Assembly (NCBI RefSeq): GCF_900167205.1
Contig: NZ_FUWW01000002.1
Location: 62,001-126,000 of the forward strand
Origin: Eubacterium coprostanoligenes
Lineage (GTDB): Bacteria > Bacillota > Clostridia > Oscillospirales > Acutalibacteraceae
Direction of reading: 5' to 3'
Length of the DNA: 64,000 nt
The notes beneath the pieces are model-generated. The model did no database searches. It saw only the letters and a program-made list of their open reading frames with translations, and was not told where the DNA came from. Numbering within the stretch: position 1 is the first letter of the stretch; every line of letters begins with the position of its first letter. Below are positions 17,856 to 64,000 of the stretch, piece by piece. The position numbers and the translations under genes are program-made.

Positions 17856-17902
17856 GTTGATGTTGAGGATGGTTTGTGCTATTATTTTTTAGAGGTGACA
17901 TT

Positions 17903-18382
17903 ATGCAAAAAGACAAAACAAATGTTATGCGTGTGCTTGACCAAAAGAAACTTGAATACACGCACTACGCATATGACAATATGACCACAAATGCGGTTGA
18001 AGTGGCAAACGAACTTGGCACCGACCCGCAGTTTTTATACAAAACATTGGTGACGGTCGGCAAATCAAAGGAACATTATGTTTTTATGGTACCTGCCGAG
18101 CACGAACTTGATTTGAAAAAAGCCGCAAAGGCAGTCGGCGAAAAAAGTATCGAGATGCTTCCGCAAAAGGAATTGCTCCCACTCACAGGCTATATCCACG
18201 GCGGATGCTCGCCTATAGGGATGAAAAAGCAATTTAAAACAACTATCCATATCAACGCTCAAGAAGCAGAAAAAATCTTTTTCTCGGGTGGCAGAGTGGG
18301 CTGTCAGGTTTGCACCTCACCAAAAAATTTGGAAAAGGTCATCCGACTTCAGTATAAGGACATAATTAAAGACGCTGATTGA
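17903..18382 (+). CDS. ybaK: Cys-tRNA(Pro)/Cys-tRNA(Cys) deacylase YbaK
   Basis: A 159-residue trans-editing enzyme of the YbaK/ProRS-INS family that hydrolyses mischarged Cys-tRNA(Pro). It shows LDQKKLEYTHYAYDN, a conserved Lys in FLYKTLVTVGKSKEHYVFMV, VPAEHELDLKKAAKA, then GYIHGGCSPIGMKKQF and GRVGCQVCTSP, all family features. ATG 17903 follows AGAGGTG; upstream in-frame codons lack a ribosome-binding site. It ends 12 bp before a structured repeat. Confidence 0.93.
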   Translation: MQKDKTNVMRVLDQKKLEYTHYAYDNMTTNAVEVANELGTDPQFLYKTLVTVGKSKEHYVFMVPAEHELDLKKAAKAVGEKSIEMLPQKELLPLTGYIHGGCSPIGMKKQFKTTIHINAQEAEKIFFSGGRVGCQVCTSPKNLEKVIRLQYKDIIKDAD

Positions 18383-18393
18383 TTCAGCGATTT

Positions 18394-18679
18394 AAACTGT
18401 CGATAAAGCCCCTGAAACACGCCAAAATTATAATAAACCGAATAATGCCTCCTCTTTTAATAAAAGGGGAGGTGGCAACACGAAGTGTTGACGGTGGGGT
18501 TTTAAAAAAGCTGTAAGTATCGAACTTACAGCTTTTTTGGCGTTTTTCGTTTTTTGCTTGGGGGCGGTACAATCGTACAGCTCCCACTCGCAATAAAACG
18601 AAATTCAGAAACTTTCTCAACAGCCTACAGTGTCTTAGACTGTCGATTAAGCCCTTGAACCACGCCAAAATATAATTAA
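18394..18679 (+). repeat. Multi-hairpin intergenic repeat, copy A
   Basis: Fills the ~340-bp gap between the convergent ybaK and radical SAM genes. In order on the plus strand: ACTGTCGATAAAGCCC; hairpin CCTCCTC..GGGGAGG; hairpin CAACAC-GAA-GTGTTG; a 14-bp stem AAAAAAGCTGTAAG with 7-base loop TATCGAA (TTCGATA on the other strand); a large stem around GGTACAATCGTAC; then TTTCTCAACAGCC. The first ~40 bases (18396-18435) recur in degraded form at 18639-18677, as if a second unit began and was truncated. Alignable with copy B (62953-63214, reverse) over nearly its full length. Confidence 0.85.
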
Positions 18680-18715
18680 CCCCGAACTGTTCGCCTTTTG
18701 GAGCAGTTCGGGGTT
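18678..18715 (-). terminator. Terminator hairpin of the radical SAM gene
   Basis: 12-bp stem AACCCCGAACTG / CAGTTCGGGGTT lying 6 bp beyond the stop codon; the T-rich run on the minus strand is weak (TTAATTATATTTT). Confidence 0.7.
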
Positions 18716-18721
18716 AAGTTT

Positions 18722-20125
18722 TTATTGTTCGTTTTTGGCTTCGTCGGTGTCACGGTAGTATTGAGTGAATGGGTGGAAGCGTTCTTGTTCTTCCCAAATC
18801 TGCTTTGCCATCGGTGCCCATTCTTTTGCATAAAGGTCGCACTTTGAGCAAAGCTCATCTGCCGATTCAGGGCAGGTGAGGTTTGTTGATTTTGCACCCG
18901 TTACATCAATGATATGTCTTAACGCCTGTGGATTTTCAAGCATCGGGCAAGGGCGAAGCATATTGTCATTGAACGGCTGACCCTTGTAATACTGCTTGAA
19001 AAGAGGAGAACGCAAACATTCGAGAATACTCTTTTCTCTGATGTTGCTGTCGCTGTAGTGGATGAATACGCAAGGCTCTGCGTCACCCTCGCTGTTGATG
19101 TGGAAATAGTTTCTGCCACCTGCGATGCAACCGCCAACGAACTCGCCGTCGTTTTGGAAGTCCATAACAAATATCGGCTTGCCGTTTCTTGTTCTTCTCT
19201 TTTTTCGGATGGTTCTGTACACGTGCTCTCTCTGTTCAGGTGTGAGAAGCAATGAGGTGTCGGCATCCGAGCCGATTGGCATATAGTGGAAGTAGAGTGC
19301 AAATTTTGCACCTGCTTCGATTTCCATATCATAGAACTTGTCGGATGTTACGGCTTGGTAGTTTTTGCTTGTGTAGCAAATTGATGTGCCGAAAATACAC
19401 TTGTGCTTTTTGAGGAGTGCCATTGCGTCAACAACTTTTTTGTATACGCCTTCGCCTCGTCTGAAATCGGTTGTTTCTTCCGTGCCTTCGATAGAAAGTG
19501 CAAGTGCAAAGTTGCCCGATTTTTTCAATTCCTCGCAGAATTCGTCATCAACCAATGTGCCGTTTGTGAATGCAAGGAAGATGCAATCCGGGTTTTCCTT
19601 TGTGACGGTGAGAATATCTTTCTTTCGAACAAGCGGTTCACCGCCTGTAAACATAAAGAAGTGTGTGCCGAGTGCCTTTGCTTCGGTAACAATCTTTCTC
19701 ATTTCGTCAAGTGTAAGATTTGAGTGATGACCGTATTCCGCCGCCCAACAGCCTTTGCATTTGAGGTTGCATGCAGAGGTAGGGTCCATAAGAATAATCC
19801 AAGGAATGTTGCATTTGAGCTTATCTCTGTTTTCACGCAGGGTTGAAGTTCCAATATATCCTGCATCAATCGCAAAGGTAAGAAGCACATTCGTTAGAAG
19901 CTCCTTGTCGGTTTCCTCGATAATGCGATAAACATAATCGTTCCAAGTGTTTTGCGGATTGGTGATAACATCAAGCGGAGCAGTCCATGTTGTTTCAGGG
20001 AACAGATTTCCTGTAACAGCCTTGCCGATTTTAAGCACTTTTGGAATGTTCTTTTTTGGGTTTTTGTAAACATAATTCACAAGCGGTCTGCCTATCTTGT
20101 GTAATGTGCTTGCTTTGAACTTCAT
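18722..20125 (-). CDS. Radical SAM protein with C-terminal Cys-rich region
   Basis: A 467-residue radical S-adenosylmethionine enzyme. The 4Fe-4S motif is Cys119, Cys123, Cys126 in SACNLKCKGC. FMFTGGEPLVRK is the SAM-binding GGE motif and LALSIEGTEETTDFRRG follows the strand order of the barrel. Further Cys residues near the C-terminus (CIAGG, PCVF, CPMLEN, CPESADELCSKC) could hold auxiliary clusters as in SPASM-like proteins. The N-terminal ~100 residues are an extension of unknown role. The substrate is unknown and no RiPP precursor is adjacent. Downstream of argS by 30 bp, probably the last gene of the ddl operon. Confidence 0.85.
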   Translation of the reverse strand: MKFKASTLHKIGRPLVNYVYKNPKKNIPKVLKIGKAVTGNLFPETTWTAPLDVITNPQNTWNDYVYRIIEETDKELLTNVLLTFAIDAGYIGTSTLRENRDKLKCNIPWIILMDPTSACNLKCKGCWAAEYGHHSNLTLDEMRKIVTEAKALGTHFFMFTGGEPLVRKKDILTVTKENPDCIFLAFTNGTLVDDEFCEELKKSGNFALALSIEGTEETTDFRRGEGVYKKVVDAMALLKKHKCIFGTSICYTSKNYQAVTSDKFYDMEIEAGAKFALYFHYMPIGSDADTSLLLTPEQREHVYRTIRKKRRTRNGKPIFVMDFQNDGEFVGGCIAGGRNYFHINSEGDAEPCVFIHYSDSNIREKSILECLRSPLFKQYYKGQPFNDNMLRPCPMLENPQALRHIIDVTGAKSTNLTCPESADELCSKCDLYAKEWAPMAKQIWEEQERFHPFTQYYRDTDEAKNEQ

Positions 20126-27894: not shown

Positions 27895-29268
27895 TTATTG
27901 TATTTTATCCCTTGCCGTTTTGATTTGCATCATAACATTTTCAGGGCACGGCGAACCGACGACCTTTCTGTCGTTGACGCATTTTTCAAGGTTAATAGCT
28001 GTGTAAACCTCGCTGTCAAAAAGACTGCAAACCTTTTGATATTCCTCAAGCGGTAGGCTCTCAAGAGTTAGCCCCTTGTCTATGCAAAGTGCAACAAGTT
28101 CACCCGTGCATTTGTAAGCATCTCTGAACGGCAAACCTTTGCCGACAAGATAGTCCGCACAGTCCGTGGCGTTGATGAAGCCTTTTGCCGCTGCGTTTCG
28201 CATATTTTCCTTGAGCACCGTCATAGTGTCAATCATTGGTGTAAAGGCGTTTAGGCACATTTTAACTGTGTCAACAGCGTCAAAGATTGCTTCCTTGTCC
28301 TCTTGCATATCCTTGTTGTATGCAAGTGCAATGCCTTTCATCATAGTAAGCAGGGTAGTGAGGTCGCCAAACACACGACCGCTTTTGCCTCTTACAAGCT
28401 CCGCAATGTCGGGATTCTTTTTTTGTGGCATAATTGATGAACCTGTTGAAAATGCGTCATCAAGCTCAACAAATTTGAACTCCCAACTGCACCACATAAT
28501 GATTTCCTCGCTGAATCGTGAAAGGTGCACCATAACAATTGATAACGCACTTGCAAGCTCAATGCAAAAATCACGGTCGGATACTCCGTCAAGCGAATTG
28601 TATGTAATGTCGTCAAATCCAAGCAAATCGGCAACCATATTTCGGTCAAGCGGATAGGTTGTTCCTGCCAAAGCGCCTGAACCGAGCGGGCAGATGTTCA
28701 TCCTCTTTTTGACATCTCCGAGCCTGTCTATGTCACGCAAAATCATTGCACAGTACGCCATTAAATGATGACCGAATGTGATTGGCTGTGCTCTTTGCAG
28801 ATGAGTGTAGCCCGGCATAATTGTGGCTTTGTGCTCTTCGGCTTTGTTGCAGAGAACAAGCACAAGCTCCTTGAGTTTGCCAACAATTTCTTCAATCTCG
28901 TCACGAAGAGTCAAACGAATGTCGAGTGCCACCTGGTCGTTTCTTGAACGGGCGGTGTGCAGTCGCTTGCCTGTCTGTCCAAGCCTTGCCGTGAGTTCGC
29001 CCTCAATAAATGTGTGAATGTCCTCGGCTTGCATATCGATTTTCAGCTTGCCTCTTTTGATGTCGTTCAAAATGTCGTTCAAGCCGTCAACGATTTTGTC
29101 ACTTTCGCTTTTGTCAATTATCCCCGTCGCCCCAAGCATTGTTGCGTGAGCAATCGAGCCTTTTATGTCTTGCTCAAACATTCGGCTGTCAAAGCCGATG
29201 GATGAGTTGAAGTCGTTGGTTTCTTTGGCAAGCTCTTTTTTGAACCTGCCTTTCCATAATTGTGCCAT
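27895..29268 (-). CDS. argH: Argininosuccinate lyase
   Basis: A 457-residue fumarase/aspartase-superfamily enzyme splitting argininosuccinate into arginine and fumarate; homotetramer in the cytoplasm. It has LWKGRFKKEL at the start, HTARSRNDQVALD, PGYTHLQRAQPITFGHH and the signature GSSIMPQKKNPD carrying the catalytic Ser loop. Follows argG by 15 bp, so the last two steps of arginine synthesis are co-transcribed. Full family length. Confidence 0.97.
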   Translation of the reverse strand: MAQLWKGRFKKELAKETNDFNSSIGFDSRMFEQDIKGSIAHATMLGATGIIDKSESDKIVDGLNDILNDIKRGKLKIDMQAEDIHTFIEGELTARLGQTGKRLHTARSRNDQVALDIRLTLRDEIEEIVGKLKELVLVLCNKAEEHKATIMPGYTHLQRAQPITFGHHLMAYCAMILRDIDRLGDVKKRMNICPLGSGALAGTTYPLDRNMVADLLGFDDITYNSLDGVSDRDFCIELASALSIVMVHLSRFSEEIIMWCSWEFKFVELDDAFSTGSSIMPQKKNPDIAELVRGKSGRVFGDLTTLLTMMKGIALAYNKDMQEDKEAIFDAVDTVKMCLNAFTPMIDTMTVLKENMRNAAAKGFINATDCADYLVGKGLPFRDAYKCTGELVALCIDKGLTLESLPLEEYQKVCSLFDSEVYTAINLEKCVNDRKVVGSPCPENVMMQIKTARDKIQ

Positions 29269-61516: not shown

Positions 61517-62014
61517 ATGAAGCATATAAAAAAACACATTTCCTGCACGATTATGATTGTTCTTATCGTTGCATTTGACCAGATAACTAAATATTTTGCT
61601 TCATTAAAGCTTGCTGACGGAAGCGTTGCAAAGTTCATTCCCGGCGTTGTGCAGTTCAGATATGCCGAAAACACGGGTATGGCTTTTTCAATGCTCAGCG
61701 GTGCAAGGTGGGCTTTCGTTGCCCTGACTTTTGCCGTGTGCGTCGGTGCTTTTTATTATTTGTTCTCAAACAAATGCAAAAGTCTATGGCTGTATTGGAG
61801 CATAGGCGTTGTCGTTTCAGGCGGTATAGGCAATCTCATTGACCGAGCAAGATTTGGCTATGTTGTTGATTTTATCGAGCCGACTTTTATGGATTTCGCT
61901 GTTTTCAACATTGCCGATTGTGCGGTTACTTGCGGTGCTGTGGTGCTGATTGGCTATTTGCTTTTTGATGCTTTCAGCGATATAAAAAAGCCAAAGGAGA
62001 AATCCAATGGCTGA
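61517..62014 (+). CDS. lspA: Lipoprotein signal peptidase
   Basis: A 165-residue, four-helix membrane aspartyl protease removing signal peptides from prolipoproteins. Motifs are FDQITKYFASLKL, RYAENTGMAFSMLSG, GGIGNLIDRARFGYVVDFIE and FAVFNIADCAVTCG, with catalytic Asp residues in NLIDR and FNIAD. ATG 61517 is chosen because GGAG lies at 61501 and the family starts near the first helix; in-frame ATG 61499 is possible. Overlaps rluD by 8 bp. Confidence 0.93.
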   Translation: MKHIKKHISCTIMIVLIVAFDQITKYFASLKLADGSVAKFIPGVVQFRYAENTGMAFSMLSGARWAFVALTFAVCVGAFYYLFSNKCKSLWLYWSIGVVVSGGIGNLIDRARFGYVVDFIEPTFMDFAVFNIADCAVTCGAVVLIGYLLFDAFSDIKKPKEKSNG

Positions 62015-62921
62015 AAATTATAGCTTTGTGTGCGAGCTGAACGGCACACGAATAGACAAGTTCTTAACTGAAAACATTGAGGATATTACTCGTTCCGCCG
62101 TGCAAAAAATCATTGATGAAAACAATGTAACCGTAAACGGTAAAACGGTTTCCAAGAATTATAAGTGCAAGGCAGGGGATAGCATTGAAGTTGTTGTTCC
62201 CGATGCCAAACCGCTTGAGGCTGTTGCACAAAATATTCCGATTGATATAGTTTTCGAGGACGAATATCTGCTTGTTGTCAACAAACCAAAGGGAATGGTT
62301 GTTCACCCTGCAAACGGCAATTCTGACGGCACTCTTGTCAATGCTTTGCTGTACCATTGCGGTGACAGCCTTTCGGGCATAAACGGGGTTATCCGACCGG
62401 GAATTGTGCATAGGATAGATAAGGACACTTCCGGACTTTTGATTGTTGCCAAAACCGACAAGGCTCACATCGGTCTTGCCGAGCAAATCAAGGAACACAG
62501 CTTTTCCCGTGCGTATGAGGCTGTGGTTTATGGTAATATTAAAGAGGACAGTGGCACGATTTGTCAGCCGATAGGCAGGGACAGTAAGGACAGAAAGAAA
62601 ATGGCAGTAACTATGAAGAATTCAAAGCCTGCCACAACTCATTATGAGGTCATCAAGAGATACGGTGATTTCACTCATGTAAGGTGCATTCTCGAAACGG
62701 GACGCACTCATCAAATCAGAGTGCATATGTCATATATCGGGCATCCTGTTGCGGGTGACCCCGTGTATGGTCCAAAAAAGGTTATAACTCGATTGAACGG
62801 TCAGTGCCTCCACGCAAAGCATATCGGATTCGTTCATCCTATAACCAATGAATACTTGGAGTTCGAAAGTGAATTGCCCGAATATTTCACATCATTTCTA
62901 AATTATCTTGAAAATAAATAA
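62007..62921 (+). CDS. rluD: RluA/RluD-family pseudouridine synthase
   Basis: A 304-residue enzyme with an N-terminal S4 RNA-binding domain (RIDKFLTENIEDITRSAVQK) and a catalytic domain with RPGIVHRIDKDTSGLLIVAKT, carrying the catalytic Asp, and GRTHQIRVHMSYIGHPVAGD. It makes pseudouridines in large-subunit rRNA. The exact target (RluD versus another RluA-type site) cannot be told from sequence. It overlaps lspA, a common pair. Confidence 0.9.
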   Translation: MAENYSFVCELNGTRIDKFLTENIEDITRSAVQKIIDENNVTVNGKTVSKNYKCKAGDSIEVVVPDAKPLEAVAQNIPIDIVFEDEYLLVVNKPKGMVVHPANGNSDGTLVNALLYHCGDSLSGINGVIRPGIVHRIDKDTSGLLIVAKTDKAHIGLAEQIKEHSFSRAYEAVVYGNIKEDSGTICQPIGRDSKDRKKMAVTMKNSKPATTHYEVIKRYGDFTHVRCILETGRTHQIRVHMSYIGHPVAGDPVYGPKKVITRLNGQCLHAKHIGFVHPITNEYLEFESELPEYFTSFLNYLENK

Positions 62922-62951
62922 CCGACAGATACTTATAATGTACCTGTCGGT
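62922..62951 (+). terminator. Terminator-like hairpin after rluD (first of a duplicate pair)
   Basis: CCGACAG-ATAC...GTAC-CTGTCGG begins at the rluD stop. Unlike the second copy at 63217, it lacks a T run; GGTTGAGCG, the edge of copy B, follows instead. Confidence 0.65.
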
Positions 62952-62952
62952 T

Positions 62953-63214
62953 GAGCGTGTCGAAAAAGTATTTTCGGCACGCTATAGATTGTTGAGAAAG
63001 GTTCTGAATTTCGTTTTCTTGCGAACATTGCTGTACGATGGTACCGCTTGTTCGCAAAAAACGAAAAACGCCAAAAATGCCGTAGGTTCGATACCTACGG
63101 CATTTTTAAAACCCCTCCGTCAACGCTTCGTGTTTCCACCTCCCCTTTCATCAATGGGAGGCATAATTCTGCTGATTATATTTGGCGTGTTTCAGGAGCT
63201 TTATCGACAGTCTG
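62953..63214 (-). repeat. Multi-hairpin intergenic repeat, copy B
   Basis: Fills the gap between convergent rluD and purB, in opposite orientation to copy A. On the plus strand in order: GCGTGTCGAAAA / TTTTCGGCACGC; the large stem TTTCGTTTTCTTGCGAACA / TGTTCGCAAAAAACGAAA enclosing GTACGATGGTAC; the 14-bp stem AAAAATGCCGTAGG / CCTACGGCATTTTT with loop TTCGATA (63073-63107); CAACGC-TTC-GTGTTT; CCTCCC / GGGAGG; and the end AGACTGTCGATAAAG read on the minus strand. Confidence 0.85.
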
Positions 63215-63216
63215 AA

Positions 63217-63251
63217 CCGACAGATACTTCAAGTACCTGTCGGCTTTTTTA
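63217..63251. terminator. Terminator of rluD/purB convergent junction (second of a duplicate pair)
   Basis: CCGACAG-A-TACTT / AAGTA-C-CTGTCGG followed by CTTTTTT. Nearly identical to the hairpin at 62922. Confidence 0.8.
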
Positions 63252-63255
63252 TTGA

Positions 63256-64000
63256 TTATACATTGATTTCAACATCTACACCAAGCAAATCCTTGTTTTC
63301 TTCAAGAATAGGATTGATGACTTCGTTCAAGAAATCAGCTGTTTGTTCAGGTGCTCTGCCAACAAAGTTAGCAGGCTTGAGAATAGCAAGGATTTCTTCC
63401 TTTGTAGTCATAAATGCAGGGTCTGCCGCAATTCTATCCACAAGGTCATTCTTGCCGCCTTCAACCTTAACAACAGCACCGGCTGCCATTGAGTGTTGAC
63501 GGATTTTCTCGTGGAGTTCCTGTCTGTCGCCACCCTTTTTAACAGCGTCCATCATAATGTTTTCTGTTGCCATAAACGGAAGTTCGCTCATAAGTCTTGC
63601 TTCAATAACCTTTGGATAAACAACAAGACCGCTTGTAACATTGATGTAAAGGTCAAGTATTCCGTCAATAGCAAGAAATGCTTCAGCAACGCTTACACGC
63701 TTGTTTGCGCTATCGTCAAGTGTTCTTTCAAACCATTGTGCAGAAGCTGTCCAAGCAGGATTGAGAGCGTCAATCATAACATATCTTGAAAGAGATGCAA
63801 TTCTTTCACTTCTCATAGGGTTTCTCTTGTAAGCCATAGCAGATGAACCGATTTGGTTCTTTTCAAACGGTTCTTCAATTTCCTTAAGATTTTGAAGAAG
63901 TCTCAAGTCGTTTGAGAATTTGCAACAACTTTGTGCAATGAGTGCAAGGCAGTTGCAAACGATGGTGTCAAGCTTTCTTGCATATGTTTGACCGCTTACA
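63256..64000 (-). CDS. purB: Adenylosuccinate lyase (5' part outside window)
   Basis: The C-terminal ~247 codons of a fumarase-superfamily lyase used twice in purine synthesis (SAICAR to AICAR, and adenylosuccinate to AMP). The open frame runs to the right edge. It reads VSGQTYARKLDTIV, LRLLQNLKEIEEPFEKNQ, then the signature GSSAMAYKRNPMRSERI with the catalytic Ser loop, and a helical C-terminal domain (MTTKEEILAILKPANFVGRA). It ends DVEINV. A start inside this region would remove essential parts, so it is taken as a truncated full-length gene. Confidence 0.93.
   Translation of the reverse strand, partial: VSGQTYARKLDTIVCNCLALIAQSCCKFSNDLRLLQNLKEIEEPFEKNQIGSSAMAYKRNPMRSERIASLSRYVMIDALNPAWTASAQWFERTLDDSANKRVSVAEAFLAIDGILDLYINVTSGLVVYPKVIEARLMSELPFMATENIMMDAVKKGGDRQELHEKIRQHSMAAGAVVKVEGGKNDLVDRIAADPAFMTTKEEILAILKPANFVGRAPEQTADFLNEVINPILEENKDLLGVDVEINV

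Follow-up and report, generated by a model that had tools for sequence, protein, structure and literature searches.

The window analysed here, a stretch of 64,000 nucleotides from Eubacterium coprostanoligenes, contains two similar structured sequences, and the question is what kind of element they represent. An earlier note described them as a two-copy repeat whose hairpins preserve pairing through compensatory changes around an invariant, T-arm-like loop. The alignment over most of the length was borne out: copy A (18394-18679) and the reversed copy B (62953-63214) match at 83% over positions 3-240 of copy A (238 positions), and, judging by their sequences, the two copies are homologous. The placement at convergent gene ends was likewise correct. 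Copy A lies between a tRNA-editing-domain gene (17876-18382, plus strand) and a radical SAM gene (18722-20125, minus strand), and the neighbours of copy B are a pseudouridine synthase gene (62007-62921, plus strand) and an adenylosuccinate-lyase-like gene (63256-63906, minus strand).

The two copies differ in completeness. Comparison with other copies placed the left end of copy A (TAAACTGTCGATAAAG) and its inner inverted repeat (CTTTCTCAACAGCCT) within 18393-18626 on the plus strand. Copy A has no right terminal hairpin, which copy B does have, and is therefore a truncated copy. Its last ~45 bases are instead a partial second left end (TAGACTGTCGATTAAGCCCTTGAACCACGCCAAAATATAATTAA; 18636-18681, plus strand), recognized by a sequence match of 18639-18681 to query positions 3-46 (89%). 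Copy B, on the minus strand, is a complete element of 262 bp with the ends CAGACTGTC...GACACGCTC. By sequence and fold, its right terminal hairpin (62953-62983, minus strand) bears the right terminal inverted repeat.

Both copies share two internal hairpins. The first, the source of the 14-bp stem in the earlier note, reads AAAAAAGCTGTAAGT-ATCGA-ACTTACAGCTTTTTT in copy A (18502-18540, plus strand; terminator-like, 17 pairs, with covariation) and AAAAATGCCGTAGGT-ATCGA-ACCTACGGCATTTTT in copy B (63071-63109, minus strand; 17 pairs, by terminator score). As these sequences confirm, the stems differ at three positions, and at all three the partner has changed as well, so that pairing is kept. The second hairpin, GTAC-NNNN-GTAC, is common to both copies, in agreement with the claim that the larger hairpin is retained. 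In copy A it belongs to the conserved core (18548-18600, plus strand), in which the stem CGTTTTTTGC/GCAATAAAACG surrounds GTAC-AATC-GTAC; in copy B it reads GTAC-CATC-GTAC (63033-63044, minus strand). The core is the part of the element matched most often in relatives. Compared with dinucleotide shuffles, folding of 18394-18633 in copy A gave a z-score of -8.35, and the two strands of copy B gave -8.57 and -11.60.

The repeat is by no means limited to two copies. A BLAST search with copy A as the query returned 69 pieces at no fewer than 40 places in the same genome (1.82 Mb); since 40 of 81 BLAST candidates were scored, more copies are possible, and some at contig ends may represent one copy counted twice. 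The inner-repeat pattern had 45 forward and 48 reverse matches in this genome, compared with 1 and 2 for the reversed pattern. Several ends of contigs C6, C8, C17, C18, C21, C27, C28 and C29 of the assembly fall in or near copies of the element. Within the genus, the repeat is present in 55 of 80 genomes, this one included. To survey the family, we used a covariance model (R1) built from 35 sequences and covering the terminator-plus-core part (128 positions); it matched 24 of 250 genomes and 16 of 135 genera, again including our own. In the order, a DNA pattern outside the own genome yielded one two-mismatch match in each of 3 of 294 genomes, and the reversed control also matched in 3 of 294. 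The core-pattern matches listed come from at least 80 named records, most of them metagenome-assembled genomes (MAGs) labelled Eubacterium sp. or Clostridia. Core matches at L162 and L231 fall in a MAG labelled as a Chlamydiae bacterium, possibly a mislabelled bin. The adenylosuccinate-lyase-like gene beside copy B has orthologues in 76 of the 80 genomes of the genus. Among 30 orthologous loci examined for both orientations of the core pattern, an element occurs within 420 nt of the stop codon only in the own genome and at L307, which represents another species and carries the element in the opposite orientation (among the other 28, the sequence of L287 ends after 44 nt).

Copies in relatives made it possible to read the ends of the element as CAGACTGTCGA[T]AAAG ... 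TTTTTCGACACGCTG. An alternative pair of ends, AGACTG...CAGCCT, was rejected as an inner inverted repeat, because relatives place the true right end beyond the next hairpin. Most elements are 260-300 bp long (117 of 125 end pairs, from redundant loci). The end-to-end span ranges from 233 to 426 bp with no transposase gene inside, and a search of 1.39 Mb of loci for longer versions between the same ends, allowing up to 7 kb, found none. From left to right, the first inner stem is closed by the inner inverted repeat (CTGAA/TTCAG and neighbours). The next, CACGCC/GGCG, holds a variable module together with a 14-16-bp hairpin flanked by A- and T-tracts, which in copies A and B scores as an intrinsic terminator. 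It is followed by the stem CGTTTTTTGC/GCAAGAAAACG, which encloses the conserved GTAC hairpin, and by the terminal hairpin bearing the right end. What had been taken for a T-arm is thus an internal bidirectional terminator.

The interior is also modular. Among 36 copies listed for the own genome, 7 contain a ~75-nt insert (GATTCCCCCGTTAATCGGGGGAA), 3 another insert (GCGGGTCTCC...) and 9 a structured insert of ~115 nt within the core hairpin. These inserts occur in mixed combinations, as if copies exchanged modules. In relatives, the variable module (18449-18500 in the window) is often another short repeat of the GGTGGCA..TGACGG or GTAGGGGCGAAC..GTTCGCCCG type. In G029, a genome from another family of the order, the variable module alone is covered among the matches listed.

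Covariation is strong in several stems. In an alignment of 35 diverse copies, 93.4% of the cells pair, compared with 81.9% after shuffling and 43-50% when the arms are slid, and the covariation score is 0.334 as opposed to 0.127, a value reached by none of 500 shuffles (kinship between copies is left in both comparisons). In the same copies, 20 of 38 pairs have changed on both sides. The sample was obtained from 72 of 75 copies (without L088, L247 and L142) by taking every second one (36); the most divergent, L048, was left out. Pair counts used the stem read directly from the sequence, as the RNAalifold consensus of the core, on which R1 is based, mispairs GGCG. For the long-range stems we used 73 of 75 copies, omitting L088 and L247, the left end of which was not found or was misaligned. 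With kinship left in, paired counts exceed the row-shuffled maxima for P1 (333 and 307), P2 (354 and 328) and P3 (684 and 663); two positions in the 3' extension of P3 never pair (0/73). In other genera many positions of the arms have been replaced and, as read by eye, pairing persists; L341, for example, has GCGTAT-ACAC-ATACGC. The proposal that the fold is selected rather than merely duplicated therefore stands in part: there is a conserved structure with compensatory changes that go beyond a one-off duplication. Selection at the RNA level does not follow from this, since the two strands fold about equally (mean z-scores of -9.2 and -9.5 over 47 copies) and the mismatches of the outer stems and of the terminator stem lean in opposite directions.

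What maintains the structure can be explained in more than one way. Template switching from one arm of a quasi-palindrome to the other could produce the compensatory changes, as a correction at the DNA level that needs no selection on a folded molecule; we consider this explanation a realistic one, if somewhat less than probable. It would account for the near-perfect terminator stems, in which 1595 of 1640 pairs counted in 111 hairpins are Watson-Crick (the best-paired stem having been chosen by script), with few intermediates and without a clear strand preference. It also agrees with the loops, among which ATCGA prevails and some variants are the inverted form (ATCGA/TCGAT), and with the duplicated terminators of L077, L079 and L080, which score higher when inverted. 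However, covariation is also seen in the long-range stems, formed by the left end and the inner repeat and by CACGCC and GGCG, which is harder to achieve by local switching, and terminator function would likewise keep the stem. Most likely, terminator function and palindrome correction would together be the reason why the inner structure is kept.

Alternatively, the element might be primarily a gene for a structured non-coding RNA, spread by transposition and with a fold selected as RNA, perhaps of the minus strand. Covariation in several stems would be expected of such a gene, as would an architecture that persists across genera although many of the stem bases differ, L341 included. Copy B folds better on the minus strand of the element (-114.5) than on the plus strand (-98.3), and mismatches in the outer stems are asymmetric, with 48 A.C on the plus strand (G.U on the minus strand) and 8 G.T. 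Yet 16 cells of this A.C excess come from a single position, and the mismatches of the terminator stem lean slightly the other way (19 G.T, 12 A.C). Nor do the nearly equal strand z-scores favour an RNA gene; the minus strand is better in 35 of the 47 copies by raw values and in 34 of 47 after subtraction of the shuffle difference. Rfam gave no match at the gathering score in the window, and in eight loci two matches below that score (E up to 1), none of them credible. Promoters show no clear excess, with 2 compared with 0.8 +/- 1.1 in shuffled sequences and 0 compared with 0.6 in a second test. In view of this evidence, an RNA gene in the first place seems unlikely.

The ends of the element pointed in another direction, namely to IS1182-family transposons. 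In the genus, 9 of 80 genomes contain a PF13751 transposase, and two loci, L277 and L279, are IS1182 elements of 1510 and 1599 bp. Their proteins match NF033551 (E-values of 8e-126 and 9e-123) and include DUF772 and DDE_Tnp_1_6 domains. The transposases sit between CAG[AC][CT]TGTCGAAAAAG and CAG[AT]CTGTAGAAAAAC (both read inwards), and each of the two elements is bordered by an exact duplication of a palindrome (24 and 26 bp); the duplication of L279, whose reading frame extends past the IS end, was read directly from the sequence. The ends of the repeat, CAGACTGTCGA[T]AAAG and, as the reverse complement, CAGCGTGTCGAAAAAG, correspond to CAGACTGTCGAAAAAG and CAGACTGTAGAAAAAC of L279, and in the copies L093 and L125 all 16 end bases (16/16) are the same as in L279. 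Whole-palindrome duplications of 19 and 31 bp also border L346 and L353 from the wider family. Taken together, long IS1182-like frames occur at 18 loci. A whole hairpin is duplicated at 4 of them, the hairpins of the two ends differ at 2 (L350 and L351), a contig end cuts 1 (L278), and the remaining 11 gave no such duplication.

The four IS (L277, L279, L346 and L353; NF033551, PF13751/PF05598) thus resemble the repeat in their terminal sequences, in insertion at palindromes and in duplication of the whole palindrome. In contrast to the repeat, they are ~1.5-1.6 kb long, encode a transposase and lack the conserved core; the strict core pattern is absent from 4/4. As to a possible origin of the interior by deletion from a parent IS, a BLASTN comparison of elements with these IS gave 161 rows (E up to 0.1); the 12 matches listed consist of the 16 end bases, besides pieces of IS that had been mistaken for elements. 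No autonomous version with the same interior was present among the loci examined. In the own genome we found no full-length IS1182 element; there is a remnant of an IS1182 transposase gene (L373; contig C21 of G000, ~28974-29192) matching 73 model positions. One end of this remnant, CAGACTGCTGATAAAG, adjoins a terminator palindrome that follows closely on a tRNA-Thr gene, on its downstream side.

The flanks of the repeat show the same type of target site. In the window, terminator palindromes adjoin copy B on one side (AACCGACAGATACTTCAAGTACCTGTCGG, 63215-63243, first copy of the target-site duplication) and on the other (AACCGACAGATACTTATAATGTACCTGTCGGTT, 62920-62952, second copy, with a diverged loop). 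For 57 intact copies, the score between left and right flanks averages 18.1. Mispaired flanks average 6.06 (sd 1.48), and their 99th percentile is exceeded by 43 of the 57 copies. With strict removal of repeats over all loci, 78 of 109 two-ended elements have matching flanks (1% expected from mispairing). A total of 31 of the 109 elements have no duplication above the threshold, and in some intact copies the palindrome on one side differs from that on the other, which would be consistent with recombination. L109, L127, L123 and L119 are intact copies of which the left and right flanks differ, as if recombined copies had rearranged the chromosome.

The duplications are 16-34 bp long, with a median of 26 (73 measured), and mostly adjoin the element directly, the gap being zero on the left in 66 of 75 cases and on the right in 61 of 75. 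Their outer seven positions are self-complementary at all seven in 51 of 73 and at six in 18 of 73; at least six are so in 69 of 73 duplications and in 2 of 73 shuffled flanks, none of which reaches seven. It follows that the duplicated unit is nearly always a whole palindrome. At L343, the right terminator copy is immediately followed by another left end and the repeated stretch exceeds 30 bp, which suggests that elements inserted at a single terminator in nested or tandem fashion.

Convergent genes commonly end in bidirectional terminators, and the flanking hairpins might accordingly be independent, look-alike terminators of two neighbouring genes, with no target duplication involved. This is highly improbable: flank scores of at least 15 were obtained for 75 of 109 elements compared with 16 of 11772 control pairings, the flanking hairpins often have identical loops, and autonomous IS1182 elements show like duplications. 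Moreover, tandem gene ends are as common as convergent ones among the elements. Of 93 copies, 38 lie between convergent and 43 between tandem genes (27 and 16), 2 are divergent and 10 undetermined, a context that agrees with insertion at terminators.

As for a tRNA T-arm or a tRNA-derived retroelement, the loop UUCGAUA of one strand does resemble the T-loop consensus, but the idea deserves practically no credence, because ARAGORN found 0 tRNA genes and Rfam nothing at gathering score in the window, the stem is almost freely variable, the supposedly invariant loop varies among 111 hairpins (TTGAT, TCGAT, TTAAT, TCAAT, ATTTAA, AAAC and others besides the prevailing ATCGA), and the repeat has DNA-transposon ends and IS1182 partners.

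Since autonomous IS1182 elements of relatives have the same ends, the repeat is best understood as a structured MITE of the IS1182 type, with a target duplication that takes in the whole terminator; the earlier note had missed that it is a transposable element. We are confident that it is a gene-less miniature element mobilized by IS1182, which inserts at the base of terminator stem-loops and as a rule duplicates the entire stem-loop. In the proposed mechanism, IS1182-family transposases would act on the gene-less repeat in trans; as no full-length IS1182 was found in the own genome and none of the four IS carries the inner core, this step is one that we infer. Insertion would take place where the stem-loop of an intrinsic terminator begins at a gene end, probably through a cruciform intermediate at the target, and would as a rule duplicate the entire target stem-loop. 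A new copy would thereby be flanked on either side by the terminator that it had entered and would contain one more terminator hairpin inside. One feature runs counter to this reading, in that a conserved inner structure is unexpected for an ordinary MITE.

Besides the IS1182 elements described above, close known systems are found in staphylococci. IS1272/TnSha1, of the IS1182 family, insert, like our repeat, into stem-loops, often terminators, with no primary-sequence specificity (PMC4923244, PMC5678879). Unlike the repeat, which duplicates the stem-loop, IS1272 removes it wholly or in part with no duplication (PMC4923244, PMC5678879); deletion of the target stem-loop is not what we found here. 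Duplication of the whole stem-loop is drawn as a possible ‘pathway b’ for the IS1182 family in PMC5678879, and our elements fit that pathway. In the literature searched, which included few subscription papers and passages of PMC9208149, we found no report of the repeat or of such duplications, and the sole mention of whole-hairpin duplication was as a hypothetical pathway; neither ISfinder nor the 2015 review of IS formed part of this literature. A second set of relevant systems comprises bacterial MITEs and repeats in general.

ERIC, BOX, RUP and Correia/NEMIS are short, intergenic, structured and often mosaic, and in these respects the repeat is like them. The features noted for the repeat are its IS1182-type ends, the palindrome-length duplication and, as far as searched, its occurrence in one bacterial family. 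In most DDE transposons the target duplication is short and constant in length. In dozens of natural insertions of the repeat, as well as in some autonomous relatives, its length instead varies with the hairpin at the target, and the cruciform-foot model proposed for IS1182 transposases can thereby be put to a direct test.

A more far-reaching view, which we regard as doubtful, is that throughout the family the element combines the roles of a transposon and of a functional molecule with a fold, inserted at the foot of an extruded terminator hairpin by an IS1182 transposase with the whole hairpin being copied. If so, insertions would be transcriptionally insulated to the left and to the right, each forming a short structured RNA unit between duplicated terminators. 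The element would then show in nature how IS1182 transposases duplicate a whole stem-loop, as has been proposed for them, and DNA secondary structure, in place of a fixed stagger, would determine how long the duplication is. The main points of interest are the mode of duplication and an interior conserved across genera. By landing on terminators and copying them, a selfish element of this kind may spread with little harm to its host.
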